This document shows, one piece after another, positions 14,808 through 38,076 of a stretch of DNA of 64,000 bases (its first letter is position 1; every line of letters starts with the position of its first letter). Source of the stretch: Dethiobacter sp. (GTDB lineage: Bacteria > Bacillota > Dethiobacteria > Dethiobacterales > Dethiobacteraceae); NCBI GenBank assembly GCA_018335875.1, contig JAGXRN010000054.1, positions 1 to 64,000 of the forward strand, written 5' to 3'. Position numbers and translations under genes: made by a program. Below the pieces are notes generated by a model. The model saw only the letters and a program-made list of their open reading frames with translations, was not told where the DNA came from and made no database searches.

Positions 14808-15555
14808 ATTGCTCCTCCATCAATGCGCGCACATTGGGAGACATATTAACGCTTTCCCAGCCAGAGATTATTGGCTTCTCTTTTTCATCCTTGGAAGGCT
14901 TTTTATCTGTATAATTTTCATCTAAGTAATCAACATAACCAGAATTAAGAAAGGTGCTACCATGTTGGATAAACTGTTCTTCCTTGCCGGTAGTTTCTTT
15001 TTTGTATCTCTCTATACAAGCTTCAATTTTTTGTACACCAATTTTATGTAGCTTCTTTTTTTGTGCTTCGGAAATTTTACCCTTACCTTTTTTCTTTGGG
15101 TACAAAGACCATAGATACTCAAACGTGACCATATGAGGGTTAAGGGAATCAGTATGAGGGTTAAGGGAATCAGACGGGCAGCTTCCATGCTCGTCCTGTT
15201 TTTGCACCGTGTTAATACAGTGCATATCTGGTGCTGGTATGATACTAGCCTGTTCTTTTATGTGAGGGTGCTGGTGCCGTAGAAAATTTTTAATTTGTAT
15301 ATACCGTTCGCCATTAACCTCATAACGGATAATAAACTGCTCCTGATTATTAGCAAGGCTGTTAAGAAGGGTGTCAATGTCGCAGTTATCATAAGGCAAA
15401 ACATCCGCTTTAATGCGTTTTGGACGGTCTTCAAGCCTCCCCTCCCTATCCGCCAATGTCCATAAACCAGCAAACAATATTCTGGCTAACGGGTCTAATT
15501 CGGCAAGGTGTTCATTTTTGAAGAACCCTGGTTTTATGTTGCGTGACCGAGCCAC
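14797..15555 (-). CDS. phage replication initiator-like protein (replisome organiser type)
   Basis: About 252 aa. The N-terminus ARSRNIKPGFFKNE followed by LAELDPLARILFAGLW and EDRPKRIKADVLPYDN is the signature of a widespread phage replication protein with a winged-helix N-terminal domain. The middle (about residues 125-145) is a linker with two copies of SLNPH. The C-terminal helical part (about 150-225) probably contacts the helicase. The GTG at 15555 has GAGGTG six bases before it; the frame is open upstream, but that part belongs to the overlapping zinc-finger gene. It is translated just before DnaB, which overlaps its last codons. Confidence 0.75.
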   Translation of the reverse strand: MARSRNIKPGFFKNEHLAELDPLARILFAGLWTLADREGRLEDRPKRIKADVLPYDNCDIDTLLNSLANNQEQFIIRYEVNGERYIQIKNFLRHQHPHIKEQASIIPAPDMHCINTVQKQDEHGSCPSDSLNPHTDSLNPHMVTFEYLWSLYPKKKGKGKISEAQKKKLHKIGVQKIEACIERYKKETTGKEEQFIQHGSTFLNSGYVDYLDENYTDKKPSKDEKEKPIISGWESVNMSPNVRALMEEQYDA

Positions 15556-15850
15556 CCTCATCACCTCGCATATCATCACATATAACTGTCTCCCAATGAT
15601 ACCGGCCCATAATTTTGATAATTTTTTCAGCGAAACGACACACTGTTTCATAAGAAAGTCCTGTCTCTGCGCAGAATTCATGAGCGGCTAAAAAAACAGC
15701 ATTCTCGGCGCGTTGCTTAGGAGTTTTGAGTTGAATACCTTGAAAAGCATTATAACACCTGCGGCATACATTTATTTTCCTCGATGAAGGATTTTCTCTC
15801 CTGAATACAAGCTCTGCTGGATTAAGGCATATTTCACACTCGAATATCAT
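15512..15850 (-). CDS. small Cys-rich (zinc-finger-like) hypothetical protein
   Basis: A 112-aa protein with an N-terminal CEIC (residues about 5-8) and a CRRC (about 29-32), a four-Cys zinc-binding arrangement, followed by a helical region (40-90). GGGGGTG lies ahead of the ATG. It overlaps the start of the replication initiator gene by about 44 bases in another frame, implying translational coupling. Small zinc-finger proteins of unknown role are common directly upstream of phage replication genes. No specific function can be given. Confidence 0.55.
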   Translation of the reverse strand: MIFECEICLNPAELVFRRENPSSRKINVCRRCYNAFQGIQLKTPKQRAENAVFLAAHEFCAETGLSYETVCRFAEKIIKIMGRYHWETVICDDMRGDEGGSVTQHKTRVLQK

Positions 15851-15928
15851 CTCAAAACACCCCCTATTTAGCTAGTGTACACATGGTTACTTTAGAGTCC
15901 GGCCTTCAAAAAAGGGCCGTTTTTTTAA

Positions 15929-16126
15929 TTATCTTTGAAAATTTTCATCTAATCCTGCCAAATAGCTAACAGGAATCCGGATAGCGGAACCGAAACGGCT
16001 TGCTGGGATGGCCCCACTTTTAATGAGTTTGTACGTCAAAGAGCGTGAATTGCCGGTAATCCTATTAAATTCTGGTACAGTCAAAAACATTTTCTCTCGC
16101 AGTAATTTTTTTACCTCAATATCCAT
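15929..16126 (-). CDS. excisionase-family HTH protein
   Basis: A 65-aa DNA-binding protein: FLTVPEFNRITGNSRSLTYK, then a short second helix, then GSAIRIPVSYLAGL. This is the winged HTH of the excisionase/MerR-like family that binds DNA and directs a tyrosine integrase towards excision. It lies 1.3 kb from the integrase, first in the leftward replication module, so it is the more likely Xis of this element. GGGAG precedes the ATG. The gap to the rightward gene at 16426 is about 300 bases and AT-rich, and presumably holds divergent promoters. Confidence 0.75.
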   Translation of the reverse strand: MDIEVKKLLREKMFLTVPEFNRITGNSRSLTYKLIKSGAIPASRFGSAIRIPVSYLAGLDENFQR

Positions 16127-16425
16127 AAATTACATCTCCCTCTCTCTTGATTTTTTGTGCGTTTAAGTATATTATAAATCCACAGAGTAGAATTTTCAAT
16201 ACTATAACAAAGCAAGATATAGTATCGAAATATTGTCATAGCGGTAATTTTAAAGTTTCATGGTCTATTTATAATAACAAAAAATTTCCATAGTAATAAA
16301 ATTTAAGATTTTCTCATTTCTTTTGTTTACTTTTAAACACTTTTGTCTACTTTTAAAACATTCTCCTAAGCTTAAAAATTTCCAAAAAAAATTTCTTGAA
16401 ATTATAAAATTTGGAGGCGATATTA

Positions 16426-17328
16426 TTGTATTTTTCCTGGTCAGTTCCCAAAAAAGGCTACACCTGGGTGAAAATCCACCCTGATGCAACAGAAAAAAGC
16501 GAAGGCCTTTTCCTTGTAGAAAAATACGGAGAGCCAAAAAGAAGGATTTATTCACCACTTGAAGATGAACCTGAATTGTTTTCCAGATTTGCCAAGCTTG
16601 AACCCACGTCAACAAAAGCAATTCTGAAGTTTGCCAACAAATATGGAAATTTAACTAAAGGCAACCTAATTGTACCTGACAGTCATAATAAAATAGAAAA
16701 ACCAATTAATATTGAACCTTTTAAGCTGTGGTGCAATGAAATATCTGAGTTTGCCCTTACTTATCGAATCTGGCGATGCCTTGAAGAACAAAGGTTTGAA
16801 GATTTAGGCCTCTATATACGTTGGGATAAAATTGACGGAACGGATGTATTCTATGTAATTTCACCCTTCAGTAACTCTCGTTACTTAACTGCAAATAATC
16901 CCCAAAGTGAGGCTATATTCAATACCTTTACCCAAAATGACCTTATCGCTCCAGCTAAATTCTTTTTGCAAACGATATTATCTCGAAAGCTAAAAGGCGG
17001 CATTTCATTAATGCCTCTTGAAGACAGCTCCTGGAACCTGTACCCGTACATTATGCCGGATAACTTACTTCGTGCTCTTTGGCTTCAGATGTATTTGGCT
17101 GTGACAGGAGAAAAAACATTTATTCAGTGCGAGTGGTGCGGCTATTTGCTGGAGGTGACAGAAAAGACCCGCATCACTAGAAAATATCATGATAATTGCC
17201 GTATGGCCATGTGGCGACAAAAAAAGAACGTAGTAAACTTATCAGAACAAGGCAAGACCATTGATGAAATCGCCGCCGAAACCAAATTACCACGTGAAAA
17301 AGTAGCTGAGTGGCTGGAGGAAAATTAA
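16426..17328 (+). CDS. hypothetical protein with zinc-ribbon and C-terminal HTH
   Basis: About 300 aa. I recognise no catalytic domain in residues 1-225. Residues about 233-260 contain CEWCG and a C-R-M-A-M-W-R segment preceded by a conserved YHDNC, a zinc-ribbon similar to those in CGNR-type proteins. The last 35 residues (LSEQGKTIDEIAAETKLPRE and on) form a helix-turn-helix. I start at TTG 16426, eight bases after GGAGGCG; the frame open further upstream begins inside that ribosome binding site. It lies directly upstream of the integrase on the same strand. A role as an element-encoded regulator is plausible but inferred. Confidence 0.6.
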   Translation: MYFSWSVPKKGYTWVKIHPDATEKSEGLFLVEKYGEPKRRIYSPLEDEPELFSRFAKLEPTSTKAILKFANKYGNLTKGNLIVPDSHNKIEKPINIEPFKLWCNEISEFALTYRIWRCLEEQRFEDLGLYIRWDKIDGTDVFYVISPFSNSRYLTANNPQSEAIFNTFTQNDLIAPAKFFLQTILSRKLKGGISLMPLEDSSWNLYPYIMPDNLLRALWLQMYLAVTGEKTFIQCEWCGYLLEVTEKTRITRKYHDNCRMAMWRQKKNVVNLSEQGKTIDEIAAETKLPREKVAEWLEEN

Positions 17329-17405
17329 AAAAATAAGTCTTACCTCTTAACTATTGATTAAGAGGAGGCTTATATATGCCCGTAATATAAAGGCTTATAA
17401 AGTGT

Positions 17406-17423
17406 CCACCACAATTTCACCAC
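17406..17423. repeat. inverted GTGGTG repeat left of the integrase gene
   Basis: Read on the minus strand this is GTGGTGAAATTGTGGTGG. It differs by only two bases in 18 from GTGGTGGAATTGTGGTGA at 18629-18646, just past the integrase gene, but lies in the opposite orientation. Such iterated short sites around an integrase gene are typical arm-type integrase or excisionase binding sites. The assignment is inference. Confidence 0.5.
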
Positions 17424-17441
17424 GAAAGGAGGGTAAAATTA

Positions 17442-18596
17442 ATGGGTAGCATTCGCAGGCAAGGCAAAGATTCTTGGGAAATACGCTGGTGTGCAAACGG
17501 CGAAAGAGGTAGGGAAACCATCAATGGCAAAAAAAGTAGTGCTAAAAACCGGCTTGCCGAAATTGAATACAAGATAGCTAATGGTACGTTTGTACCTCCT
17601 ACAAAAATAACCTTGGCTGAATTTCTGGAGAAACAATGGCTCGTTCACATTAAGCCTAATATTCGTCAAACTACGTATGACAGCTATGAAAGCACAATAC
17701 GAAACCACATTAACCCAACACTTGGCAAATTAACCTTAACTAAAATTAAACCATTGGATATTCAACAATTATTGACGGATAAACAGGGTGATGGCTCACG
17801 AGCTGACGGTGAGTCCGGCAAGCTTTCCCCCACTACGGTAAGGTATATCCGTAAAGTATTAAGAGCCGCATTAAACAAGGCTGTTAAATGGCGGATAATT
17901 GCATACAATGCGGCAATACAAACAGAAATAACAGAACAAACTGAACATGAACACAAAACTTGGAATATAAAGCAGATTTTTCAGTTTTTAGACCATACAA
18001 AAAATGATAGACTCTACCCTGTGTATTTGACGACCATTTTTACCGGAATGCGGCGCGGTGAAGTCTTGGGCCTTCGTTGGGGTGATATAGACCTGGAAAA
18101 AAGAACAGCCTTAATATCGCAGGCATTAATCCCAGTTAAGGGTAAACCAACTATTTCCAACGTTAAGACTAAAAACGGCCTCCGCAAAATACCGCTGTCT
18201 CCTTATCTGATAAAAGCATTAAAACATCATCTGACACTGATGAAAGCAGAACGGCGAGGGGAAAACAACATCACTGAATATCCTTCTCCTGATGATTTTG
18301 TTTTTACAAAGATTGAAGGCGGTTTCTATGACCCAAACTACGTAAGCAGACAGTTTAAAAAAACTATAGAAGCCGCTGGTTTATTAAAAATTTGTTTTCA
18401 TGAGCTTCGCCATTCACACGCTACGATACTTTATGCTCTAGGTGTGAATGACAGGCTTATCAGTGAACGGCTCGGCCATGCAGATGTGAAATTCACCATT
18501 AACACCTATACTCATTCTGAACCTGACCAGCAGGCTCAAGCTATCCTAAAATTTGATGAGCTTTTTGAGCAGCAAGTAAAAAAAGAAAGCATATAA
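17442..18596 (+). CDS. int: tyrosine site-specific recombinase (phage-type integrase)
   Basis: A 384-aa integrase of the Tn916/phage type. In order: an N-terminal arm-binding domain (about 1-60, starting MGSIRRQGKDSWEIRW), a SAM-like core-binding domain (about 65-165), and a catalytic domain (about 175-375). The catalytic residues are visible: Arg in TGMRRGEVLGLRW, Lys in VKTKNGLRKIP, H-x-x-R in HELRHSHAT, and the Tyr nucleophile in INTYTHSEP. A strong AAAGGAGGG precedes the ATG. The gene ends 118 bases from the 3' end of tRNA-Pro and points towards it, the usual arrangement for an element integrated into a tRNA 3' end. GTGGTG-type repeats lie on both sides. Confidence 0.93.
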   Translation: MGSIRRQGKDSWEIRWCANGERGRETINGKKSSAKNRLAEIEYKIANGTFVPPTKITLAEFLEKQWLVHIKPNIRQTTYDSYESTIRNHINPTLGKLTLTKIKPLDIQQLLTDKQGDGSRADGESGKLSPTTVRYIRKVLRAALNKAVKWRIIAYNAAIQTEITEQTEHEHKTWNIKQIFQFLDHTKNDRLYPVYLTTIFTGMRRGEVLGLRWGDIDLEKRTALISQALIPVKGKPTISNVKTKNGLRKIPLSPYLIKALKHHLTLMKAERRGENNITEYPSPDDFVFTKIEGGFYDPNYVSRQFKKTIEAAGLLKICFHELRHSHATILYALGVNDRLISERLGHADVKFTINTYTHSEPDQQAQAILKFDELFEQQVKKESI

Positions 18597-18610
18597 AATG
18601 GAGGTTCAAT

Positions 18611-18651
18611 GTGGTGAAACCAGTACATGTGGTGGAATTGTGGTGAAATTG
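18611..18651. repeat. three tandem GTGGTG(A/G)AA repeats right of the integrase gene
   Basis: Three direct copies: GTGGTGAAAC at 18611, GTGGTGGAATTG at 18629 and GTGGTGAAATTG at 18640. They lie between the integrase stop codon and tRNA-Pro and are inverted relative to the copy at 17406-17423. They are candidate arm-type recombinase sites. Confidence 0.55.
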
Positions 18652-18668
18652 CAGTTTTGGAAGGAAAT

Positions 18669-18702
18669 AAAAAAATCACCGGAGCTAATAACTCCCGTGA
18701 TT
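18669..18702 (-). terminator. terminator downstream of tRNA-Pro
   Basis: Read leftwards, AATCACGGGAG and CTCCGGTGATT form an 11-bp stem with one mismatch and a seven-base loop, followed directly by a run of seven T. It lies 11 bases after the tRNA 3' end, inside the integrated element if the tRNA is the attachment site. Confidence 0.75.
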
Positions 18703-18713
18703 ATTGGCTTTTA

Positions 18714-18790
18714 TGGTCGGAGCGACAGGATTTGAACCTGCGGCCTCTTGACCCCCAGTCAAGCGCGCTACCAAGCTGCGCCACGCCCCG
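18714..18790 (-). tRNA. tRNA-Pro (anticodon GGG), probable attachment site
   Basis: A 77-nt tRNA folds cleanly on the minus strand. The acceptor stem is CGGGGCG with CGCTCCG, the D-arm contains AGCTTGGTA, the anticodon stem is CTTGA with TCAAG around loop CTGGGGG (anticodon GGG, Pro), and the T-arm loop is TTCAAAT. The encoded CCA ends at 18714. Its 3' end faces the integrase gene, so it is the probable integration site. I found no second copy of the tRNA 3' end to the left within the window, so the other element boundary lies outside. Confidence 0.93.
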
Positions 18791-18915: not shown

Positions 18916-19848
18916 CTATTTCTCGCCGCAGCGCTCTAGCAGGCGCTCATACTGTTTGTCGATGAAGGCCTGAAGTTGATCAATGACCCCTTCGTTTTCG
19001 GGTTTGAAAAGGTGGCTGAAGCGGCCCTGCAGCTCAAGATATTCACGTATTGGTTTTTTGTTGCGGATTTTTTGAGTGAGGCGCCAGATACCGTCTTCTA
19101 CTTCGTAAAGAGGCCAGATGCATGTTTCTGTGGCAAGCTTGGTGATTTCGATTGTCTTTTCCATGGGATAGCGCCAGCCGCGCTGGCAGGGGGCGAGGAT
19201 ATTGATCAGTGTGGCGCCGTCTGTCTGAAAAGCTTTTTGCGCTTTGGTAAAAGTGTCGCGCCAGTTGTGGATGCCTGCTTGTGCCACGTAGGGGATGTTG
19301 TGGGCGGCGGCGATGGCTGTCAGGTCTTTGCGGTTTTCAGCTTTACCGGAGCTTTTTTCACCGTGGGGAGAGGTGGTAGTCCAGGTGCCCAGTTGGGTGG
19401 CACCTGAGCGTTGGATGCCGGTGTTCATATAGGCTTCGTTGTTGTAGCAGACATAGAGGGCGCGGTGGCCGCGCTCAAGCATGCCTGAAAGTGCCTGAAA
19501 ACCGATATCGTAGGTTCCGCCGTCTCCGGCGAAGACTACAAAGTAGGTGTCCTTGTTTATTTTACCCTGTTTTTTAAGGGCGCGGTATGCTGTTTCCGCG
19601 CCGCTGATGGTGGCGGCGGCATTTTCAAAGGCACTGTGGATAAAAGATACCCTCCAGGCATTATATGGGTAGATGGCTGTGGATACCGCCAGGCAGCTGG
19701 TTGCACCGCTGACTACAATGTGAGAGTTCTCAGGTGCAGCAAGAAGAATCTGCCGTACAGCTATTGAAGCGCCGCACCCTGGGCACAGTCGGTGCCCGCC
19801 GGCGAGGTGGTCGGTCTTCTTAACTATTTCGGACAATTTTATAGCCAT
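18916..19848 (-). CDS. porB: 2-oxoacid (pyruvate):ferredoxin oxidoreductase, beta subunit
   Basis: A 310-aa thiamine-diphosphate-binding subunit of a four-subunit 2-oxoacid:ferredoxin oxidoreductase. The N-terminal CPGCGAS supplies two Fe-S Cys residues. The TPP-Mg motif runs from GDGGTYDIGFQAL to the NN in CYNNEAYMNTG. The SHSAFENAAAT-like region (here FIHSAFENAAAT) matches PorB of anaerobes. Length is normal for the family. It is last in the order gamma-delta-alpha-beta and is followed by a terminator. The complex oxidatively decarboxylates a 2-oxoacid to acyl-CoA, CO2 and reduced ferredoxin. Pyruvate is the default substrate, but the link to the amino-acid cluster upstream leaves other 2-oxoacids possible. 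Confidence 0.93.
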   Translation of the reverse strand: MAIKLSEIVKKTDHLAGGHRLCPGCGASIAVRQILLAAPENSHIVVSGATSCLAVSTAIYPYNAWRVSFIHSAFENAAATISGAETAYRALKKQGKINKDTYFVVFAGDGGTYDIGFQALSGMLERGHRALYVCYNNEAYMNTGIQRSGATQLGTWTTTSPHGEKSSGKAENRKDLTAIAAAHNIPYVAQAGIHNWRDTFTKAQKAFQTDGATLINILAPCQRGWRYPMEKTIEITKLATETCIWPLYEVEDGIWRLTQKIRNKKPIREYLELQGRFSHLFKPENEGVIDQLQAFIDKQYERLLERCGEK

Positions 19849-19881
19849 TTATATCCCTCCGTTATAGTCTTCTGACGCGTC

Positions 19882-21048
19882 TTATTCGCGGACGCCAAGG
19901 TAAGTGACAAGATTGTTTGATTTAATTGAAGCAACAGCCTGCAGAATCAGGTCTACATTTAAGTCACGGCCGCCGAGGCCGTAGATAAAGTTCTGAATAA
20001 GCGGGCGTTTCTCTGCATCATAAAAAGATGAGCGTGTTTCTACAAAAACAGGGCCGCCGAGTTCTCCGGCCAGAGTATCGGAGCGGTCAAATACTGCCAC
20101 TGTGCTGACATGGGAGAGGGCCGCTGCCAGTTCTTTTGACGGGAATGGCCTGTACATACGCAGTTTTAACAGCCCGGCACGGACGCCTTTTGCACGCAGT
20201 TCATCCACAGCGGCCTTCATGGTGCCGGCTGCCGAACCCAGGGCAATCAGGGCCAGATCGGCATCATCCATTTTGTATGTCTCAAAGAAACTGTAAGGGC
20301 GGCCTGAGATGCGGCCGTATTCTTCGCCAATTTGTTTAATTGCGGCAGGTGCGTTTTTCATTCCTTCGGCCTGGGCACGTTTGACCTCAAAGTAATAGCC
20401 GTGAAGGCCGTCAAAAGAACCCCAGGAAGTCGGGTTCTGGTCGTCTAAAAGCGAGTTCTCAAGCTTGTGTGTGCCGATGAATTTGCCTGCAGCTTCGTCG
20501 TCTATTAAATCCAGCCTGTCAATAGAATGGCTGATGATAAAGCCGTCCATCATAACCATTACCGGCAGCAGTACATCTTTGTGTTCAGCGATGCGGATAG
20601 CCTGTAGTATATTGTCATAAGCTTCCTGGGCATTTTCTGAATAAAGCTGAATCCAGCCGGAGTCCCTTGCTCCCATGCTGTCGCTGTGGTCGCAGTGTAT
20701 ATTTACAGGCGAGGAAAGAGTACGATTGACGTTTGTCATAACTATCGGCAGCCGTAAACCAGAGGCGATATAGAGTATTTCCCACATCAGGGCCAGACCC
20801 TGTGATGAGGTGGCTGTCATTACCCGGGCTCCGGAAGCAGCAGCACCTATGGCAGCGCTCATGGCGCTGTGTTCACTTTCAACATTTATCATTTCAGTAT
20901 TAACCGCGCCGTCAGCCACCATCTGAGAAAATGTCTCTACGATGGATGTCTGAGGTGTAATGGGGTACGCGGGTACTACGTCGGGGTTAATCTGACGCAT
21001 AGCTTCAGCTACAGCATCAGTCCCGACCAGAGCAACTGTCCTTTGCAT
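19882..21048 (-). CDS. porA: 2-oxoacid (pyruvate):ferredoxin oxidoreductase, alpha subunit
   Basis: A 388-aa subunit with the pyrimidine-binding TPP domain (residues about 5-230; AYPITPQTSIVE, VESEHSAMSAAIGAAASGAR, TATSSQGLALMWE) and the transketolase C-terminal-like domain (about 260-365). These are the standard PorA signatures, including the Glu in VESEH that activates TPP. GGAGAG lies ahead of the ATG, and the gaps to porD (22 bases) and porB (33 bases) are short, as in an operon. It works with porB, porC and porD in the cytoplasm. Substrate specificity cannot be read with certainty; overall it is closest in style to pyruvate enzymes. Confidence 0.93.
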   Translation of the reverse strand: MQRTVALVGTDAVAEAMRQINPDVVPAYPITPQTSIVETFSQMVADGAVNTEMINVESEHSAMSAAIGAAASGARVMTATSSQGLALMWEILYIASGLRLPIVMTNVNRTLSSPVNIHCDHSDSMGARDSGWIQLYSENAQEAYDNILQAIRIAEHKDVLLPVMVMMDGFIISHSIDRLDLIDDEAAGKFIGTHKLENSLLDDQNPTSWGSFDGLHGYYFEVKRAQAEGMKNAPAAIKQIGEEYGRISGRPYSFFETYKMDDADLALIALGSAAGTMKAAVDELRAKGVRAGLLKLRMYRPFPSKELAAALSHVSTVAVFDRSDTLAGELGGPVFVETRSSFYDAEKRPLIQNFIYGLGGRDLNVDLILQAVASIKSNNLVTYLGVRE

Positions 21049-21070
21049 TTTTTACTCTCCTCCCGCCATC

Positions 21071-21436
21071 TCAGGCACTTTTTTCTTCTTTTGGTTTTTC
21101 TTCGGGTAAAAGACACTTCTCAAGGCCCAGCGCCTCAGCCTCATTCATCATGTGTATCGCTTTGGGCGGGCATACTTCTGCGCAGATGCCGCACCCTTTA
21201 CAGTGCTGCAGGTTAAACCCGGCCATCTTTTCGCCGTCGATAACAATGGATGTATCCGGGCAAAAGATAAAGCAGATAAAGCAGTGGACACACTTATCCA
21301 GGTTGAGTATCGGCCTGATTGAACGCCAGCCGCCGGTGGCATAGCCGTCCGTGGTGGCTGCTTCCGGAATTACAGACCCAATCGGGTGCTCCTGCCAGCC
21401 CCATTCTTTTATTTTGCTGATATCCCATTTACTCAC
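21071..21436 (-). CDS. porD: 2-oxoacid:ferredoxin oxidoreductase, delta (2x4Fe-4S) subunit
   Basis: A 121-aa ferredoxin-like electron-transfer subunit. Two 4Fe-4S motifs are present, CVHCFICFIFCP (about residues 50-61) and CKGCGICAEVCP (about 79-90). An N-terminal extension (WGWQEHPIGSVIPE) is typical of PorD. Translation starts at GTG eight bases after GGAGG and overlaps the end of porC by eight bases. A charged Lys/Glu-rich tail follows the second cluster. It passes electrons from the TPP centre to soluble ferredoxin. Confidence 0.92.
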   Translation of the reverse strand: MSKWDISKIKEWGWQEHPIGSVIPEAATTDGYATGGWRSIRPILNLDKCVHCFICFIFCPDTSIVIDGEKMAGFNLQHCKGCGICAEVCPPKAIHMMNEAEALGLEKCLLPEEKPKEEKSA

Positions 21437-22007
21437 CTATCTGCACCTCCTCAAAGGCTGTCTTTAGTGCTTCCAGGTTGCCCCTGACAACTTTATCCGA
21501 AAACTTGTGTCCAAAGGATTCCTGAATAAATTCCAGGGCTTCTTCCTCCGTAAGCAATCCGCTTACTTTAAGGAGAGAACCCAGCATTGGTATATTGGGC
21601 ATGGAGCGGCCCAATTTCTCCATGGATATCCTGGTCGCATCTACTGTGGCTACTTTGTAGCCGTACAAACCGTATTTCTCGGTGACAGTAGCGGGGCATT
21701 CCCCTGTATTGATGATAATGCTGCCGGCTTCAATCAGGCCGGCTTTAAAGTCTACTACATCACACAGAGAAGGATCCACAACAACAACCAGTTGTGGCGA
21801 CGTTACACCGCAATACATGTGGATGGGTTCATCACTCAGACGATTAAAACACTGGATTGGCGCCCCCATCCTTTCAGGGCCGTACTCAGGAAAAGCCTGG
21901 AAATACAAACCTTTACTCAGGGCCATCTCAGCCAATACTTTGGCTGCGGTAACTGCACCCTGCCCCCCTCTGGCATGCCAACGAATTTCAGTGATATTTT
22001 TGCCCAT
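21429..22007 (-). CDS. porC: 2-oxoacid:ferredoxin oxidoreductase, gamma subunit
   Basis: A 192-aa gamma subunit, first gene of the por operon. The start TEIRWHARGGQGAVTAAKVLAE is the family hallmark (CoA-proximal domain), followed by FPEYGPERMGAPIQCFNRL. The ATG at 22007 has GGGGAG six bases before it; a longer frame from 22025 includes that site and is rejected. The operon leader between this gene and the KamB-like gene is 114 bases and contains the 14-mer TCATTGATGAGTAT, which is repeated exactly upstream of the PLP-enzyme gene about 8.5 kb away. Confidence 0.92.
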   Translation of the reverse strand: MGKNITEIRWHARGGQGAVTAAKVLAEMALSKGLYFQAFPEYGPERMGAPIQCFNRLSDEPIHMYCGVTSPQLVVVVDPSLCDVVDFKAGLIEAGSIIINTGECPATVTEKYGLYGYKVATVDATRISMEKLGRSMPNIPMLGSLLKVSGLLTEEEALEFIQESFGHKFSDKVVRGNLEALKTAFEEVQIGE

Positions 22008-22044
22008 ACTTGGCTCCCCTTTCACTAGACTCAGGTTGCTCTTC

Positions 22045-22121: not shown

Positions 22122-23147
22122 TTAACCACTACAATTGATAAGCGAGTTTATTATGCCGGCTAATTTTTCTCCTCCCTGGCGCACTATGTCTACTACAGGA
22201 ACTGTCAGTCCGGAGTTAAAGGCCTGCCAAAGGTTGTCGGCATGAAGCATAGCGCTGCCGTAGTGTCCGTTAACCTTGTTGTAGTGCGGATAAAACGGAT
22301 TAACTGTGACGGCAAGGAGCGGGAGAGGGGAATGCACCCCAACTCTGCCTCCTTTTTTATTATAATGCAAGAGCTTTGCCGCCATTTTTTCCAAATCTCC
22401 GCACAGGAGCAGTTTGACAGGATCATGAAACACCAGCCCTGGCAGGGGAGAAAAAAGCTCAAGGCTTTCTGCAATCGGCAAGAAAGGCTTAATATCAACT
22501 ACTCCTGAGAATTCTACTGTCTTATAGATGAAGCCTCCGGCACCCGGCCACAGACCGGTATCACTTTCAACAAGAAGAGACGGGAGGCTAAAAACCGGCT
22601 CTACAGCAGGCAAAACGGGCAATGACAAAAGGTATTCAATGGCCAGAGCCTCCTGTAACAGCTGTGTGGGGCATGTATTACGGGAGGCCCCGGTGGCAAT
22701 GATCAGGCCGTCGGCTGCGCTCATAGGCGCCAGGCGGCCCAAAGCGCCATCAACGAGCAGCAATTTAAGGTTGTACTTTTTAAGGCGGCTGATAATATCC
22801 CTCAGTGCATTCTCACTGTTTGGGCCGGCTAGCACAACAAGGCCGCCGCGCAAAACTCTGCCGATCACCAGTCTGCCAAGCGGTGTACTGATGTCTGTCA
22901 TTTCCAGTTTCTGCAGAGACGCGCTCCCTGCCGGCAAACAGTTCTCAGCTGTTACTACCAGTGCGCCTTCAGGGATATGCAGTCTTGGTTTTGGCAGTCC
23001 CGTGACATTGTCAATTGCTTCGCCATCATAACCGATACTGGTGATGCCAAGCATTGCCGGATCCGGTATACTGTTAATCAAAGATATTGTGGTCGTTGTT
23101 TTGCCTGTGTTTTTGGCCGTGCCGGCAACACCAAGAATCCTCATCAT
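22122..23147 (-). CDS. KamB-like P-loop reactivase of a B12-dependent aminomutase
   Basis: A 341-aa P-loop protein. The Walker A is GTAKNTGKT (residues 9-17). From there to about residue 185 it follows, as I recall it, the KamB pattern of lysine 5,6-aminomutase reactivase: SIGYDGE, VTGLPKPRL, a STPLG-x-L-x-IGRVL block, and VDGALGR before a GLIIATGA strand. KamB helps replace inactivated adenosylcobalamin in the aminomutase. The C-terminal 150 residues extend beyond that core. The ATG overlaps the stop of the cobalamin-domain gene (TAATG), so the two are coupled in translation. No KamC gene is present here. The P-loop is certain; the reactivase role rests on family and context. Confidence 0.72.
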   Translation of the reverse strand: MMRILGVAGTAKNTGKTTTTISLINSIPDPAMLGITSIGYDGEAIDNVTGLPKPRLHIPEGALVVTAENCLPAGSASLQKLEMTDISTPLGRLVIGRVLRGGLVVLAGPNSENALRDIISRLKKYNLKLLLVDGALGRLAPMSAADGLIIATGASRNTCPTQLLQEALAIEYLLSLPVLPAVEPVFSLPSLLVESDTGLWPGAGGFIYKTVEFSGVVDIKPFLPIAESLELFSPLPGLVFHDPVKLLLCGDLEKMAAKLLHYNKKGGRVGVHSPLPLLAVTVNPFYPHYNKVNGHYGSAMLHADNLWQAFNSGLTVPVVDIVRQGGEKLAGIINSLINCSG

Positions 23148-24964
23148 TAAACCCTGTAGACGGTTCCGGCCCCGGCCCTGCCCGGGTAGGCGCCTTCTTC
23201 ACGGCTGCCCAGCACACCTTGCTGCAGTGCCTGCGCAAAATCACCCACTTCTAGTACCTGGCGTAAAACCTGTTCAATACCTGCCTCCAGGTGCTCCGCC
23301 CACTGGCGTGCACTGGCTGTAGGTTCAATGGTTGCTGTTCCCAGAAACCTGAATGCTTCTTTAACTGCCTTCAGTGTGTCTATTCTTGAAGCAGCTGCAA
23401 TTGGCCCTCCTGAATATGCTTCATCTGAAGACGCAATGGAAATCGCCTCCACGCCCAGGGAGGCGGCCAATGCGGCATGCAGTCCGGTCGAGACGGATGA
23501 TTGTACCCGCTCTTCCGTCTGCGTGAGAAAGCCAATGGGCGCACCGGCCCAGATGGGCGCATTGATAATATTTCTGAGAGCCAAAATCTTCGCCACGTTA
23601 AAGTCAATATAATTATCACTCATGTTCCCATTAATCATAACCTCGGGTGAGTAACAAAAGAGCGGCTGTAATATGGGCATGGCGCCAAGGGCAAGTGACA
23701 GGTTAGAAACTATAAGCATGCCCGCAAACGCTTTGTATGCAGGTACTCCGGATAGTTCTTCGTTGGTTACCACATCAAACGGCATACCATATTGGGCGGC
23801 AAATTTAATTGCCTGCACACCATCCACGATCATTCTTTCCGGGTCTGTGCCCGCGCCAAGACAGCCGTAGGCAATATTAATTTTAGTAAGGTCTGCCCCC
23901 GCATTGCCTGCCAGCAGTACTGTTTCTGCAGTGTTCACTCCCCGGTGTGCACGTACCTGCCAGAGAGTCGATTCCTGCAGCGACTCTTTTATACACTTTA
24001 GGTTTTCAGGCGTTATAACCGACCCATCTTCGTGGTGGGTCAGATACCCCTCCAAAAATCCTTCGCTGCGCGCTCCCCAGGATGGATCGAAATGCACCAC
24101 GCCGTCGGCACCCCAGGCTTCGGAGGCTTTTATATGCGCTATATCCATAGATGGGCAACCCGTCCCGTATTGTACAAATACGCCCGGTTTCTGGCGGGTG
24201 TGGCGGATGTTCTCCGGATTCATGCGGGACCTGGTTTGCTCTACATACCGGCTGATGGCAGCCAGCTCTTCTATTCCAAGCTTTCTTGTCTGAGGATGAA
24301 GGCATCCTGACGTATAGTATTTACTGACTATATCATCACAGAGGCTGGCATATTCTTTTTTGTGGCAGGCAGTACTTTCGCCCTGGCTTTCGTCTGTGAG
24401 GATCTGGCGGCGCAGCAGCGCCCGCTGCACGCCCGGACTAGTCCTCTCCTTTGACCAGTCCAGGATCTGTGCGGTAATCTGGTCAAGCAGTCCCTTGATA
24501 GGCCTGTTCTTAAATTCATACCGGTAATCACCAATCAGATTGTAGCGGTTGTGTTTGTTCATGCAGCGTGCAGGTATATATTCCCTGCCCTCGACAAAGG
24601 CCACCGTTTCTTCCACGGTGGTGCCGGGACCAAAGCCGCCGTCAAACCCCAGTTCAGCGGCCAGTTCAGGCCTGATAGCCATTCCACCCACGGCAATTTT
24701 AACCCTCTCGCGCAATCCGGCAGCATCCAGCAGGTCGACAAATCTGGCCAGCACTTCTTCCACTCCATACCCAAGTGTCCGGCTGATTAGTACTGTATCT
24801 GCCTGGTGCTCCATAATACCGCGTATTATCTCCTGCGGAGAATAATCAGGAGGGTAGAGCCAGGTAATATGCCCTGCTTCTTCCAATCCGCGGCGAATCA
24901 TCTTCAGGCCAATGTCGTGCACCGGATCCATCGGTGCCAGCACAACCTTTTTTATAATGCTCAT
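23147..24964 (-). CDS. cobalamin-binding/TIM-barrel mutase of unknown substrate (KamDE/OraE-related)
   Basis: A roughly 605-aa cytoplasmic protein. Residues 1-140 form a B12-binding Rossmann domain: a PVHDIG loop with His16 as the likely cobalt ligand, then VLISRTLG, VGGMAIRPE and a GFGPG turn near the end, which resembles KamE/OraE. Residues about 215-560 look like the TIM barrel of class III aminomutases or glutamate mutase (VQYGTGCPSMDIAHIK, VRAHRGVNTAET). In OraE the B12 domain is C-terminal, so the order is reversed. The loop reads D-P-V-H where the family has D-x-H, and the insert carrying the PLP-binding Lys in KamE is absent. The start is chosen at ATG 24964 after AAAGGAGG; it overlaps the upstream stop. 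Chemistry and substrate are unknown. Confidence 0.7.
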   Translation of the reverse strand: MSIIKKVVLAPMDPVHDIGLKMIRRGLEEAGHITWLYPPDYSPQEIIRGIMEHQADTVLISRTLGYGVEEVLARFVDLLDAAGLRERVKIAVGGMAIRPELAAELGFDGGFGPGTTVEETVAFVEGREYIPARCMNKHNRYNLIGDYRYEFKNRPIKGLLDQITAQILDWSKERTSPGVQRALLRRQILTDESQGESTACHKKEYASLCDDIVSKYYTSGCLHPQTRKLGIEELAAISRYVEQTRSRMNPENIRHTRQKPGVFVQYGTGCPSMDIAHIKASEAWGADGVVHFDPSWGARSEGFLEGYLTHHEDGSVITPENLKCIKESLQESTLWQVRAHRGVNTAETVLLAGNAGADLTKINIAYGCLGAGTDPERMIVDGVQAIKFAAQYGMPFDVVTNEELSGVPAYKAFAGMLIVSNLSLALGAMPILQPLFCYSPEVMINGNMSDNYIDFNVAKILALRNIINAPIWAGAPIGFLTQTEERVQSSVSTGLHAALAASLGVEAISIASSDEAYSGGPIAAASRIDTLKAVKEAFRFLGTATIEPTASARQWAEHLEAGIEQVLRQVLEVGDFAQALQQGVLGSREEGAYPGRAGAGTVYRV

Positions 24965-25194
24965 TGCTGTGCCTCCTTTAGCCAACCGTACATATCCCCT
25001 GCCCGGAATACATACCCCCGCGCTCTTACTCTGGCTCCCGGCCCGAGGTGCTTGCAGTAGACCACGTCGATGTCCCTTAAGCCCATATCAGTCATAATCT
25101 GTCGTATAGTTCTAATTGCTTCATCCTCGTCCTTAGCGACGATGAATGTTTCAATATCCAGGGCATCCATAACTTTGTCCAGCCCGTTGGCCAT
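24961..25194 (-). CDS. 77-aa subunit, possibly a detached KamE N-terminal-like domain
   Basis: A 77-aa alpha/beta protein: a helix (EDEAIRTIRQIMTDMGL), a strand (IDVVYC), then KHLGPGARVRARGYV (residues 48-62). The helix-strand-(K)xLGPG order is like the N-terminal dimerisation domain of KamE as I remember it, which would make this a free-standing piece of the same enzyme. The ATG at 25194 lies seven bases after GGAGG; the longer frame is rejected. Its stop overlaps the start of the mutase gene (ATGA), so the two are translationally coupled, as expected for two subunits of one complex. The homology is tentative. Confidence 0.55.
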   Translation of the reverse strand: MANGLDKVMDALDIETFIVAKDEDEAIRTIRQIMTDMGLRDIDVVYCKHLGPGARVRARGYVFRAGDMYGWLKEAQQ

Positions 25195-25228: not shown

Positions 25229-25960
25229 TTAAGAATGATTCGCTTCTTCGTCGATGTGGGCAAACGACCAGTATTTGTGGACATCTGCCATCAGGTTTTC
25301 AATATGCTCTACCATTGCTTGCTCTGCGGCCACGGGGTTGCGCCCCGCCACAGCATTAAATATTTTAAGATGGTCGGTAAATATTTTGCTGTGTACTTTC
25401 TTGCGGATATAGCCAAGCACAGGTGAGAGCTGAGCGTCCTGACGGATAAGGTTGAGTGCAGCCTTTAAAACTCTGTTTCCCGCAGCATCTGTAAGTGCGT
25501 TGTGAAAATACAAGTCGCCCACTTCCACATTATTATCAGAGTTGAGGTAAGAAGTTACTGATATCTCCAGGCTAGCCAACTGCTCATCATTTATTTTTAA
25601 AGCAGCAAGGCGGGCTATCTCTCTTTCAATTGCTTTACGGGCTACCAGTATTTCCAGCAGTTCTTCTTTGTTTCGTGAGTTCACGAGTTTCGTAAGCTGC
25701 TGGCTGAAAAGCAGTCGGTTTTTCTCATGCGTCAGAGTATGGAGGTAGTTTCTGCCCACACTGGTTATAATGCGCCCTTTAAAACCTTGTTTTTCAGTAA
25801 ATCCTCTTTCATCCAATTCACGCAACAAGCGCCCGCAAGTAGCTTCGCTGACCTGGTGGCCGGTGGTAATCAGAGCAAGACATGCACTCCCCGAACCTAC
25901 CGGCTTGTCGCTTTGACTGATAAAATCAAGTAAAAAGAAAAGCTGTCCTTTTTCTTCCAT
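25229..25960 (-). CDS. transcriptional regulator: NrpR/RNase R-type winged helix plus FCD ligand domain
   Basis: A 243-aa regulator. Residues about 85-230 are an FCD effector domain (helical; ILVARKAIEREIARLAA, then YFHNALTDAAGN, then DHLKIFNAVAGRNP), normally fused to a GntR winged helix. Here residues 1-75 instead resemble the winged helix at the N-terminus of archaeal NrpR and RNase R (SQSDKPVGS, LLRELDERGFTEKQGFKGR). FCD domains bind small organic acids, so this protein probably senses a pathway intermediate. It is first in the mutase operon, 34 bases before the 77-aa gene, with AAGGGGAAAG before the ATG. The binding site may be the 14-mer found upstream of porC and the PLP gene. Confidence 0.78.
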   Translation of the reverse strand: MEEKGQLFFLLDFISQSDKPVGSGSACLALITTGHQVSEATCGRLLRELDERGFTEKQGFKGRIITSVGRNYLHTLTHEKNRLLFSQQLTKLVNSRNKEELLEILVARKAIEREIARLAALKINDEQLASLEISVTSYLNSDNNVEVGDLYFHNALTDAAGNRVLKAALNLIRQDAQLSPVLGYIRKKVHSKIFTDHLKIFNAVAGRNPVAAEQAMVEHIENLMADVHKYWSFAHIDEEANHS

Positions 25961-26094: not shown

Positions 26095-27522
26095 TTACAT
26101 CAAAAACATTGCAACTATGGCTGCTACAGTAAGGCCGCTAATAACAGGGATAAAGTTCTTACGCGCCAGGTCAAGCGGGTTAACCCCGGCAATACCGGCT
26201 GTGGCCACCAGGCCAAAAGCCCAGGCTGCGAGAGTTCCGCCACCGGACCATACGGCGCCCATCTGGCCGATTGCGGCCAGAGCTTCCACACGCACCCCGG
26301 CAATGGGGCCAAGGGCGGCGGCTAAGCTGGCAGTCAGCGGCAGGCCGGAGAATCCAGAACCATCGAGGCCGGTGATAATACCAATAATCACGTTGCCGAA
26401 AGAAAGAGCAAACTTGTTCATTGGCAGTGCATTAGCCAATGCTCTCCCCAAGTCAAAGAGCAGGGCAGGAGCGCCTTCACCAAGGATTTGGGTGGCAGCG
26501 CCGGCGCCCAGGAAGAAGAAACCGGCAATGGGGATAACAGGGGCAAAAATTTTAATCGCATAATTCAGGCCGTAGCGAATATGCTCCACTATTGATTCCA
26601 GTGCCTTGTTGCCGTCTGCAGCAATACTGTTGATAATCAACATTAAAACTGCCGCTCCGCCCAGTAAAGCGGTGGCGTCGCCGCCGCGCAGGTGAGGCAT
26701 AGAGGGGATATACTTGGTGAGAATCATCAGGGCTACTATTGCGATAAAAGTAACGGGGACAAGGATCGCCATTGTACGGGCATGCGGAGATGTTTCAGTC
26801 TCCGATGTTGCTGCCATCAGGCTGGTCTCAGCCACAAAAGTACCGCTTTTTACTTTTGCATAGTTGGCTGAAATTTCCTTGTGCATCATCATATAGGCGA
26901 CACCGATGGCAACAATACCTGCCACCCAGGAAAGAATAGCAACGTCAGTGAGCATGGAGCCGCTCACCAGGCCTGCGGTACGCTCGCTCAGGCCGGGTGC
27001 GCCCTGGATAATCAAGTCACCGGAGAGGCCCATGCCGTGGCCAAAGATGTTGACAGCCATGGCGGCAGCCATGGCAGGCAGGCCTGCACTGATAGCGACC
27101 GGCACCAGCATGACGCCGACAAGGGCTGTGGCGGGAGTAGGCCAGAAGAACAGGGCGCAGATATACATCACGCTGCCCAGTGCAAAGAAACCGATATGAG
27201 GATTTTTCAGCAGCCGGCGCGCCGGCGCCACCATCAGATTATCGGCGCCTAATTTGGACATAGCTTTAAGCATGGCCACCATGAGGGCGATAACCAGCAT
27301 GATATCAAACAAATCCTCACCGGCGGTCAGCAGTGCACGGAAAGAAGTCTGGATAGCGAAAACAATCTGGCTGACCGCAGACCCCTCGGCGTAAAGCAGG
27401 CCGAGAAGAAAGATACCCACAAGACTGGGCATGACTACGTCACGCCTTTTAATCATAGTAATAATAACAACAAGAACAATTAACAGGTACAGCCAATGGG
27501 AAAGTGTCAATGTTACATCCAT
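26095..27522 (-). CDS. secondary transporter of the ion-transporter (DcuC/CitM/NhaC-like) superfamily
   Basis: A 475-aa integral membrane protein with about 11-13 hydrophobic helices and two halves separated by a polar loop near residues 230-250. Each half has a Gly/Pro-rich re-entrant-looking stretch (FFWPTPATALVGVMLVP in the first, GLDGSGFSGLPLTASLAAAL in the second). This fits the inverted-repeat fold of the ion-transporter superfamily, which moves carboxylates, amino acids or Na+/H+. The substrate cannot be read. Its own promoter region (27523-27776) carries four TATTTAC elements. Between the mutase operon and the FAD/PLP pair, it is the likely uptake system for the pathway's substrate. 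Confidence 0.7.
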   Translation of the reverse strand: MDVTLTLSHWLYLLIVLVVIITMIKRRDVVMPSLVGIFLLGLLYAEGSAVSQIVFAIQTSFRALLTAGEDLFDIMLVIALMVAMLKAMSKLGADNLMVAPARRLLKNPHIGFFALGSVMYICALFFWPTPATALVGVMLVPVAISAGLPAMAAAMAVNIFGHGMGLSGDLIIQGAPGLSERTAGLVSGSMLTDVAILSWVAGIVAIGVAYMMMHKEISANYAKVKSGTFVAETSLMAATSETETSPHARTMAILVPVTFIAIVALMILTKYIPSMPHLRGGDATALLGGAAVLMLIINSIAADGNKALESIVEHIRYGLNYAIKIFAPVIPIAGFFFLGAGAATQILGEGAPALLFDLGRALANALPMNKFALSFGNVIIGIITGLDGSGFSGLPLTASLAAALGPIAGVRVEALAAIGQMGAVWSGGGTLAAWAFGLVATAGIAGVNPLDLARKNFIPVISGLTVAAIVAMFLM

Positions 27523-27776: not shown

Positions 27777-29063
27777 TTAATGGCTGACGAGCCGGCTGTC
27801 AAAGACATCCGTCAGGCCGCAGGCCTCCACGCGGTGGCGGATAGCAGTCTTGTTTATGGTATAAAGGTCAAGTGCTTTCAAATGGTCAAAGAGCACTGAG
27901 CCCGAAAAGGTATACTTTAGGCCAAGGCCACCTGGAGCTGCCATTTGTTCTTTAACCCAGGCAATGGATTCACCGACCATCAATGTACGCGGCAATTCGA
28001 GAGGCTTTTTCCCAAGTTCAAAGCGCACTGCATTATGGCCGGCAAGAGTCCCTGTAATAATCGCTTCGGTATGGCCTACCAGCAGGCCGGCTTTTTCACC
28101 ACCGCAGAACAGGTTGTCCACGCCTTCCACCTGCAGGCAGTTATCACGCGGCGAGAGCGCAAGGTATCGCATTGAATTGCCCATGCCTCCGCTGTAAGGA
28201 TCTTCATAGCGAGCTTCCTCGAAGCCGGGAATCTGGCGCAGCACTTCCAGCGGAAAGAAAGGACTCATTAATTTGGCATGACCGGTGTCAAGTAGAATAA
28301 CATTGGCTGCATACTCCGGCAAAGCATACTGCTGGCACGCTTTTTTGTCCAGAGAATCTCCCTTTTGCAATTCTTCGGGGACAGGTATCACGGCAACGCC
28401 GTTTCTTTCAAGTGTTTCGATAATATCTTTGCTCAGTGATTCCTTAAAAAGCTTGCACGATCCACTCATGGCGCCGATGGTACCGTCAGACTTCTCGCCC
28501 ATAAACTCCTCAACACCGGCTTTGGCAGCTATGCTTACCCGGGTGCCGAAAGTGGGGCAGCGCAGTATACACATGGCACAGCCTTTGCCGTACTTGGTAC
28601 AATTGGCCATGCCTCCCGCAGTACCTGTAGCCTCAACAAACACATCCGCCTCCAGGAATGTTCCATCCTTCAATTTCACTGCCTTAATTCGCCGGCCATC
28701 CATCTCCACGTCACGCGCAGTGTTCACAAGAATTATCTTTACGCCCAGTTCTTGCAGCAGTTGCTTTACAGCAGGCTCAATTTTGGCCACGTCGTACAGT
28801 GAAGCATGTTTGTGGCCCGGAAACTCCATATCGCGGTGCCGGGAAACTCTGTCGGTAACATCAAACAGGTCTCCGCCACCCAGGGCAATGGCTTCTTCAG
28901 TAGCTGTCCAACGGCCATTGTTGCGCATTATTCCCCCGACCAGTCCAGTCCCAAGCAGCATGTCAGTCCTTTCCACAATACTTACCCGGGCGCCGGCCTT
29001 GGCGGCTGAAACCGCCGCGGCCGTTCCACTCCACCCTCCACCGACAACAACCATTTTTACCAC
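27777..29063 (-). CDS. FAD-dependent oxidoreductase with internal Cys cluster
   Basis: A 428-aa flavoprotein. The N-terminal VVVGGGWSGTAAA (residues 5-17) with a following acidic strand end is an FAD-binding Rossmann motif, and a second dinucleotide-like segment (VDNLFCGGEKAGL) lies near residue 320. Cys155, 162, 165 and 169 are spaced C-x6-C-x2-C-x3-C-P, which could hold a 4Fe-4S cluster in the substrate domain. That makes it more like a flavin/Fe-S oxidoreductase than MnmG/TrmFO. The GTG start has GGAGG eight bases before it. It is 34 bases from the PLP-enzyme gene and almost certainly co-transcribed with it. Its substrate is unknown; oxidation of an amino-acid-derived intermediate is inferred. 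Confidence 0.72.
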   Translation of the reverse strand: MVKMVVVGGGWSGTAAAVSAAKAGARVSIVERTDMLLGTGLVGGIMRNNGRWTATEEAIALGGGDLFDVTDRVSRHRDMEFPGHKHASLYDVAKIEPAVKQLLQELGVKIILVNTARDVEMDGRRIKAVKLKDGTFLEADVFVEATGTAGGMANCTKYGKGCAMCILRCPTFGTRVSIAAKAGVEEFMGEKSDGTIGAMSGSCKLFKESLSKDIIETLERNGVAVIPVPEELQKGDSLDKKACQQYALPEYAANVILLDTGHAKLMSPFFPLEVLRQIPGFEEARYEDPYSGGMGNSMRYLALSPRDNCLQVEGVDNLFCGGEKAGLLVGHTEAIITGTLAGHNAVRFELGKKPLELPRTLMVGESIAWVKEQMAAPGGLGLKYTFSGSVLFDHLKALDLYTINKTAIRHRVEACGLTDVFDSRLVSH

Positions 29064-29096: not shown

Positions 29097-30542
29097 TTAA
29101 TTGTAGGCGTACTTACAGACGATTTCAATCAGCCTGACAAGCGCCTTGATTGCCAGGCGAGACCTGTCCTCAAGCAGGCGGCCGTGTTCATCTGTGGTGC
29201 CAAGCCCCGGTGAAATATAGATATTGGCGTCATAAGCGATGGTCGGTATAACACCCATTTGGGCAAGACCTGACTGCAGGATGTTTGATCCGGCATACAT
29301 ATCTTCGATGGTAAAAATGGGTATACCCTGTCCATTGGCCCATGTTCCTTCATAGTTAACTTCCACTGCTGTTGAATTGTGGCTCTTGCTGATAATAATG
29401 CCCTTGCGCAATGATGCATCAAGCTGCGCGAATTCCTCTTCCACCACACGATACAAATCATCTACTGGCTGAGTTACCACTTCCGGTTTAGCAAGAAGAG
29501 CCTTCATTGCAGCGATTTGGCCCAGTAATGCTTCCTTGCCTGGATCTTGTGTCACATAAGCTGCCTTGCCGTAAGATGCTGTTGTGCCCCAACGGTCGCC
29601 GTGCATGCCAAGGGCCCTGCGGATAGGCACCATGTATTCTTCCTTACCGATAACCAGGCCGCTGGTGGTAGCGCCGCTTGCTTTATCCATGCTGTAAATA
29701 ACCACATGCGCGCCTGTCTTGCGTATATCAGTGCCAACAAAGGGAATTCCCCAGGCATTGTCTATCACATAGGGGATATCGTATTGATTTGCCAGGGCGG
29801 CAAGTCTCTTTTGCAGGATTGGGGTGCCGTCTTCATCTTTTTGTCCATAGCCGTAACCCGGAGTTTCATAACCAAGTGAAGTGATGCCCGTTAGTTCTCC
29901 GGCATGACGCCCGGCCACTTCCGCCATTTTTAACGCTGTCTTTTCAGCGTCGACACCGGATAACAAGGGAACAGGCCAGTACTTAATACCGTGTACAGGA
30001 TACTCGGCTCCGACCATGGGAACTATCAGTGTGTCCATATTATTCTGGCGCTTGCCCGAAAATCCGGCTTCACCTGCTGTGGAACCGCGGTCTGCAAACA
30101 CATCTTTGAAACGGGGCGGGAAAGGACGTCCATAGCCGCCGTGATGATGCAGGTGTTTCTCCGCAGGTATTAGGTAACGGGTGCGGTAGTTATCCCCCCT
30201 GCCCATGCTGGGCGGTGTGAACAGTGAGTCGAATGTCACCCAGAGGCCAGCTTCACAGGTATTTACCGGTGCTGCGTCATATTCATCACCATAGTAAGTT
30301 TTAACCAGTTCACGGATTTCATCCACCAGTTTGGCCAAGGGTGTGACTTCTTTGCCGCCCTCTTCACAGTAGCGCGAGATATCTTCGCGCAAAGGAGCAG
30401 GACAACCGGAGATGGCCCCAGTCAGCCCGAATTTTCCCTTCAGATTATCTGGTATCCCTATTGTGGAAGCAACTTCCCTCGCTTCCTGGTAGATTGAGCC
30501 AATATTCGCCTGTAGTTTTTTATACATCTGAAACTTAAACAT
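29097..30542 (-). CDS. fold-type I PLP-dependent enzyme of unknown specificity
   Basis: A 481-aa PLP enzyme. The cofactor residues are visible: a strand ending IDNAWG with Asp261 for the pyridine nitrogen, and Lys287 in YSMDKASGATTSG for the internal aldimine. The 26-residue spacing fits fold type I (aminotransferase, desulfurase, SelA/SepSecS-like). A His-rich segment (KHLHHHGGYGR, about 129-139) and a C-terminal domain follow the usual plan. GGAG lies seven bases before the ATG. It heads the transcript that also carries the FAD enzyme, just downstream of a terminator and the shared 14-mer. It could be an aminotransferase, lyase or decarboxylase; sequence alone does not decide. Confidence 0.75.
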   Translation of the reverse strand: MFKFQMYKKLQANIGSIYQEAREVASTIGIPDNLKGKFGLTGAISGCPAPLREDISRYCEEGGKEVTPLAKLVDEIRELVKTYYGDEYDAAPVNTCEAGLWVTFDSLFTPPSMGRGDNYRTRYLIPAEKHLHHHGGYGRPFPPRFKDVFADRGSTAGEAGFSGKRQNNMDTLIVPMVGAEYPVHGIKYWPVPLLSGVDAEKTALKMAEVAGRHAGELTGITSLGYETPGYGYGQKDEDGTPILQKRLAALANQYDIPYVIDNAWGIPFVGTDIRKTGAHVVIYSMDKASGATTSGLVIGKEEYMVPIRRALGMHGDRWGTTASYGKAAYVTQDPGKEALLGQIAAMKALLAKPEVVTQPVDDLYRVVEEEFAQLDASLRKGIIISKSHNSTAVEVNYEGTWANGQGIPIFTIEDMYAGSNILQSGLAQMGVIPTIAYDANIYISPGLGTTDEHGRLLEDRSRLAIKALVRLIEIVCKYAYN

Positions 30543-38046: not shown

Positions 38047-38076
38047 ACTCTGCACCTCGTTGCATCGCTATTGTGT

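Follow-up and report, generated by a model that had tools for sequence, protein, structure and literature searches.

Two overlapping genes in a Dethiobacter genome probably encode a PLP-independent adenosylcobalamin mutase built on an aminomutase scaffold

In a 64,000-nucleotide stretch of Dethiobacter sp. DNA (hereafter the window), two overlapping genes on the reverse strand encode what is probably an adenosylcobalamin (AdoCbl)-dependent radical mutase that shares its descent with the lysine 5,6- and ornithine 4,5-aminomutases and is independent of PLP. The larger gene (23147..24964, reverse strand, ATG at 24964 to TAA at 23147) encodes a 605-aa mutase subunit, identified by Pfam model PF02310, by its hhalign and Foldseek matches to KamD (8t0v_A) and by 34 homologues. 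The smaller gene (24961..25194, reverse strand), whose TGA overlaps the mutase ATG in the sequence ATGA, encodes a 77-aa protein, p77, a free-standing OAM dimerisation domain according to its AF2 model, Foldseek and PF16554. Domain mapping shows that p77 followed by the 605-aa protein is equivalent to KamE followed by KamD, except that the two genes are split between the dimerisation domain and the B12 domain, whereas KamE and KamD are split between the B12 domain and the barrel.

The 605-aa protein comprises a B12 domain (residues 1-128), a KamD/OraS-like accessory segment (approximately 155-250), an eight-strand barrel (approximately 260-545) and a C-terminal tail. PF02310 matches residues 12-121 (E = 2.6e-13) and is the sole Pfam domain above cut-off; in the other 480 residues no Pfam model reaches its cut-off, and PF09043 is not among the models reached by the protein. 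An earlier note on this DNA had described the B12 domain as N-terminal, as opposed to C-terminal in OraE and a separate subunit in KamE, and the PDB matches agree: the matching segment of OraE is residues 612-727 of 763 (3kow) and the KamE match is a separate chain. IcmF has its B12 domain at the N-terminus too, so this placement by itself does not set the family apart. The GFGPG end of the domain, which the note had also reported as kept, lies at residues 110-114.

Two comparisons place the barrel closest to KamD. First, hhalign aligned KamD with the barrel part of the 605-aa family over 420 columns, covering the whole barrel (global P 2.3e-8, local P 8.3e-7), the alignment opening in the accessory segment with 'DWSKERTSPGVQRALLR' in the 605-aa family and 'SWIGDYTTTTTERAAARLL' in KamD. 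The OraE and MutE profiles scored below KamD; the OraE comparison is weak, its profile containing two sequences only, and the global alignment of MutE collapsed, so that we used only its local C-terminal match. All three alignments are small, and the profile matches rest on this small and narrow base. Second, a Foldseek search with the AF2 model (three rows), itself of low confidence, returned KamD first (8t0v_A, E = 2.6e-10, 503 columns), followed by IcmF, glutamate mutase E and OraE. The barrel of this model is poor (pLDDT 54), which leaves its active-site geometry unclear and its strand ends approximate, and we used only the match at the level of fold. A check for a different barrel fold did not refute the earlier reading: with this low-confidence model Foldseek found a KamD-type fold.

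The p77 model (AF2, three rows) is a beta-alpha-beta-beta fold with pLDDT 83. Its seven best Foldseek matches among 350,542 PDB chains are all OraE or KamE (rmsd 1.1-3.3 Å); the small size of the domain keeps the E-values modest (0.007-0.02), but nothing else ranks ahead of these two proteins. PF16554 is the commonest Pfam match of p77 family members (17 of 30, best 4.6e-4), although below its curated cut-off. The partner protein is thus of the aminomutase type, as had been proposed, and specifically an OraE/KamE-type dimerisation domain.

The cobalamin His loop, D-P-V-H-D (residues 13-17; 24914..24928, reverse strand), reads M-D-P-V-H-D-I-G in the window, with His16 as its histidine, and the acidic residue had been suspected to be one place off. 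Indeed, all 34 homologues carry D-P-V-H-D-[IVM]-G-x-K, with D13, P14, V15, H16, D17 and G19 invariant, and in every one the pattern is D-x-x-H-x-x-G and not the canonical D-x-H-x-x-G. When other B12 domains were searched for the pattern, 48 loops emerged, every one with the Asp at His-2, compared with His-3 in the 605-aa family (seven further pattern matches do not resemble B12 loops). The strand preceding the loop is the same length as in 1y80, which indicates substitution and not insertion: judging from these alignments, the canonical Asp is now Pro and the residue before it is now Asp, so that the acidic residue has really moved by one position. The displaced Asp and the other features of the loop, like the N-terminal position of the B12 domain, are traits of the family and not an oddity of one genome. 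H-D-I-G is common to corrinoid proteins, and the likeness to the HDIG of methyl-corrinoid proteins might suggest a corrinoid methyltransferase or a corrinoid-carrier fusion; set against the KamD-type barrel, the OAM dimerisation partner, the KamB-like reactivase and the AdoCbl-site Glu described below, we consider this explanation very improbable.

In KamE and OraE the PLP lysine (K144 and K629, respectively) lies 11 residues after the cobalamin His. The 605-aa family has no conserved Lys at this point, where position 27 is an invariant Leu, and profile alignments of the family with KamE begin only after the PLP-lysine segment, so that this segment is absent, as the earlier note had suspected. 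In KamD/KamE, PLP is contacted by Lys144, by Ser238 (pyridine nitrogen), Tyr263 (stacking), Asn299 (phenolic oxygen) and Tyr236, and its phosphate by Arg184, Arg268, Ser189 and the amides of residues 187-189 (PMC3958899). Three motifs are visible in both the KamD and OraE sequences: R-[HT]-T-[GA]-Q-S, [NS]-Y-x-S-G and Y-x-[IV]-[IL]-[FY]-R. In the aligned columns of the 605-aa family the phosphate loop RxTGQS is replaced by D293-P-S-W-G-A-R299, Y236-x-S238 of KamD becomes A339-H340-R341, R268 aligns with the variable position 371 and N299, mapped by eye, falls on L404. The sole KamD contact kept in these columns is Tyr263, as Y366; RxTGQS, Ser238, Arg268 and Asn299 are without counterpart.

We also looked, as set beforehand, for a PLP Lys elsewhere in the Rossmann domain. 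The only invariant Lys there is K21, at His+5, where the sequence of methylmalonyl-CoA mutase, a PLP-free enzyme, carries a Lys as well; K21 was rejected as a PLP lysine, and the reading of a missing PLP site stands. The barrel has two invariant lysines, K361 and K411, either of which could in principle bind PLP. These are the basis of the most serious competing explanation, that the enzyme remains an aminomutase dependent on both PLP and AdoCbl, its Schiff-base Lys having moved into the barrel (K361 or K411) and the phosphate being held through a different loop, SWGAR, together with R299 and R377. KamD is the closest barrel, p77 and the KamB-like partner are of aminomutase type, and K361, K411, Y366 and R341 are all invariant. 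In the alignment R341 takes the place of the Ser through which KamD contacts the pyridine nitrogen, and in some other PLP enzymes an Arg fills this role. On the other hand, the Lys segment, RxTGQS, Ser238 and Asn299 are all lost, p77 has no conserved Lys in its family alignment, and K361, in the low-confidence model, lies before its strand, on the side away from the active site. On balance we regard retention of PLP as unlikely. Taken together, the aligned sequences support, but do not prove, the loss of PLP in the 605-aa family: for the PLP independence proposed earlier, the case has grown, in that most of the KamD contacts are gone as well as the lysine, while the invariance of K361 and K411 leaves PLP binding some probability. 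The accompanying suggestion that the enzyme is more like a carbon-skeleton mutase is one we still only infer; by both sequence and fold its barrel resembles KamD more closely than it does glutamate mutase.

Features of an AdoCbl site are apparent in the barrel of the putative PLP-free mutase. D514 and E515 are invariant in the family, and the local MutE match, in the last barrel repeat, pairs S-S-D-E515-A with K-T-P-H-E-A (the MutE motif being H-E-A-L-G). We take the Glu of the MutE motif to be the residue found at the ribose of AdoCbl in glutamate mutase, Glu330. In OraE, Glu338 is reported to assist Co-C cleavage (PMC4413051), and E515, paired by eye, may correspond to that residue. Invariant residues are enriched behind the predicted C-terminal ends of the barrel strands (39, against an expectation of 24.5; p = 7e-4, with strand ends taken from the low-confidence model) and include R299, R338, H340 and R341; such a pile-up is as expected of a working barrel. 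The invariant arginines R299, R338, R341 and R377 are candidates for an equivalent of the arginine claw by which MutE binds a dicarboxylate.

The gene downstream of the mutase encodes a KamB-like reactivase (22122..23147, reverse strand), conserved in the cluster, whose start overlaps the mutase stop in the sequence TAATG. It scores 188 bits against NCBIfam reactivase_KamB (cut-off 210), and its homologue in locus L002 exceeds that cut-off with 248 bits. Together these features strongly suggest an AdoCbl radical enzyme with a KamB-type reactivase. On the other side of p77, also on the reverse strand, are an FCD-domain transcriptional regulator (25229..25960; PF07729, PF08461) conserved in the clusters, a membrane transporter (26095..27522; no Pfam match) conserved in many of them, an FAD-dependent oxidoreductase with a conserved Cys motif (27777..29063; PF01134/PF12831 and alignment), again conserved in the clusters, and a PLP fold-type-I enzyme with a lyase/sulfhydrylase-like core around SMDKASG (29097..30542), which has homologues in the barrel genomes. 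Directly downstream of the reactivase gene, a four-subunit 2-oxoacid:ferredoxin oxidoreductase (18916..22025, reverse strand) is kept in the closest relative, L048. The oxidoreductase genes adjoin a tRNA-Pro (18714-18790) beside which a run of DnaB-like, DnaD-like and tyrosine-integrase-like genes ends; this region (13512-18790) is possibly an integrated element. Elsewhere in the window (36379-40268), two adjacent acetolactate-synthase-like large-subunit genes have a small-subunit-like gene between them.

Homologues of the 605-aa protein occur in genomes of the same family (78% and 75% identity), in UBA3567 (67%) and in Candidatus Formimonas warabiya DCMF (62%), with one fragment at 46%. Whole-genome searches covered Bacillota, and a profile search of 300 sampled genomes found barrel homologues in 28, among them that of the window; a viral collection contained no relatives. 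Most loci carry a cluster of DUF6917, RidA, the PLP fold-I enzyme, the FAD enzyme, the transporter, the FCD-type regulator, p77, the mutase and the KamB-like gene. DUF6917 has precisely the same distribution as the barrel, 28 of the 300 genomes; the chance of an identical set would be 5e-40 were the genomes independent, an overstatement because they share ancestry. Strong homologues of the PLP fold-I enzyme are present in the same 28 genomes plus one. In genome G174, p77, the KamB-like gene, the regulator and an FAD enzyme are in a second locus (L147, G174:C41), apart from the mutase and PLP genes, and p77 was not found in G115, a genome 78% complete. In related genomes, the N-terminal segment of a different family of 555 aa (L093 1387-3054, L094 1405-3072) is B12-like (GNDVHVAG), and the family matches glutamate mutase E weakly; here is another architecture in which B12 comes first.

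In the window genome, which has a contamination figure of 6%, DUF6917 and RidA are absent from the mutase locus. Its DUF6917 gene sits on a different contig (L129 8704-15238, G000:C56), accompanied by genes for a TctA-like transporter, a TPP enzyme and an L-glutamate gamma-semialdehyde dehydrogenase that exceeds its curated cut-off; the regulator in this second context is from the same family as that of the mutase cluster. L137 contains a similar set of DUF6917, TctA-like, TPP and regulator genes. PLP fold-I paralogues are also found with no mutase nearby, some of them adjoining RidA, DUF6917 or the FAD enzyme (L134-L142), which suggests that the PLP/RidA/DUF6917 module serves several substrates.

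RidA belongs to an enamine/imine deaminase family, and its presence in the cluster together with a PLP enzyme of lyase-type core could indicate an AdoCbl-dependent eliminase (an ammonia or water lyase) in place of a mutase. We find this improbable, as the fold matches, KamD, IcmF, MutE and OraE, are all mutases, and RidA may instead serve the PLP enzyme.

For the PLP-independent mutase that we favour, we propose the following mechanism. p77 would provide the dimerisation domain, and the 605-aa chain the B12 Rossmann domain, the accessory segment and the substrate barrel. AdoCbl would bind base-off; His16 would be its ligand, with the displaced Asp13/Pro14 tuning the interaction, and homolysis would deliver the 5'-deoxyadenosyl radical into the barrel near E515. 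With no PLP aldimine, a carboxylate-bearing substrate would be bound directly, probably through arginines, by the invariant R299, R338, H340 and R341 and probably R377 behind the barrel strands, and would undergo a 1,2-rearrangement. The KamB-like protein would reload inactivated cobalamin, and the adjacent PLP enzyme, RidA and the FAD enzyme would process the intermediate, amino or imino, which in the window may be on its way to a 2-oxoacid for the ferredoxin oxidoreductase. Glutamate, beta-alanine and P5C-linked compounds are candidate substrates, among which the evidence does not separate.

A literature search on DCMF metaproteomics, DUF6917 and PLP-free or unassigned AdoCbl mutases returned nothing on the 605-aa family. 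It is conceivable, if rather short of an even bet, that the family constitutes an unrecognised class of AdoCbl radical enzyme, in which an aminomutase scaffold was domain-shuffled and stripped of PLP, and that it performs a new rearrangement within an anaerobic catabolic pathway that is widespread and has the uncharacterised protein DUF6917 as its other exclusive component. Two roles are ascribed to PLP in the aminomutases: helping the radical shift of the amino group and, by way of its link to the lysine, keeping the B12 domain at a distance as long as substrate is absent. A PLP-free natural relative, if confirmed, would show how radical formation is gated otherwise on the same scaffold, and what chemistry results. 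The family is common in Bacillota, with a barrel that Pfam does not match above cut-off; its exact co-occurrence gives DUF6917 a first functional context, and the family outlines a new B12 pathway that can be tested in concrete terms.

Finally, the system can be compared with four known ones. IcmF (fused isobutyryl-CoA mutase, PDB 4xc6) has the same N-terminal B12 domain, but acts on a CoA substrate, has its B12 domain and barrel separated by a GTPase domain and lacks an OAM dimerisation partner; neither the CoA-mutase barrel nor the GTPase domain of IcmF and the methylmalonyl-CoA mutases has a Pfam match in the 605-aa protein. Glutamate mutase (MutS/MutE, PDB 6h9e) is PLP-independent and has in common with the window family the Glu-Ala motif of the last repeat and an Arg after strand 3; it differs in its separate MutS subunit and in lacking the OAM dimerisation domain, and its family model PF06368 gives the window protein 11.5 bits (cut-off 26.6, E = 0.1). 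D-ornithine 4,5-aminomutase (OraS/OraE, PDB 3kow, 3kp1) has the same domain types, and the p77 model superposes on the OraE dimerisation domain with an rmsd of about 1.1 Å over 54 columns; OraE, however, runs barrel, dimerisation domain and B12 domain in one chain with PLP on K629, unlike the window proteins in both order and PLP site. D-lysine 5,6-aminomutase (KamD/KamE, PDB 1xrs, 8t0v, 9q1a) shares the barrel with its N-terminal accessory segment, the GFGPG-ended B12 domain, the dimerisation domain and a KamB-type reactivase. In the window, by contrast, the B12 domain is fused ahead of the barrel, the dimerisation domain is a separate 77-aa gene, the PLP Lys and most PLP contacts are gone, the His-loop Asp is displaced, and the barrel is about 20% identical to that of KamD.
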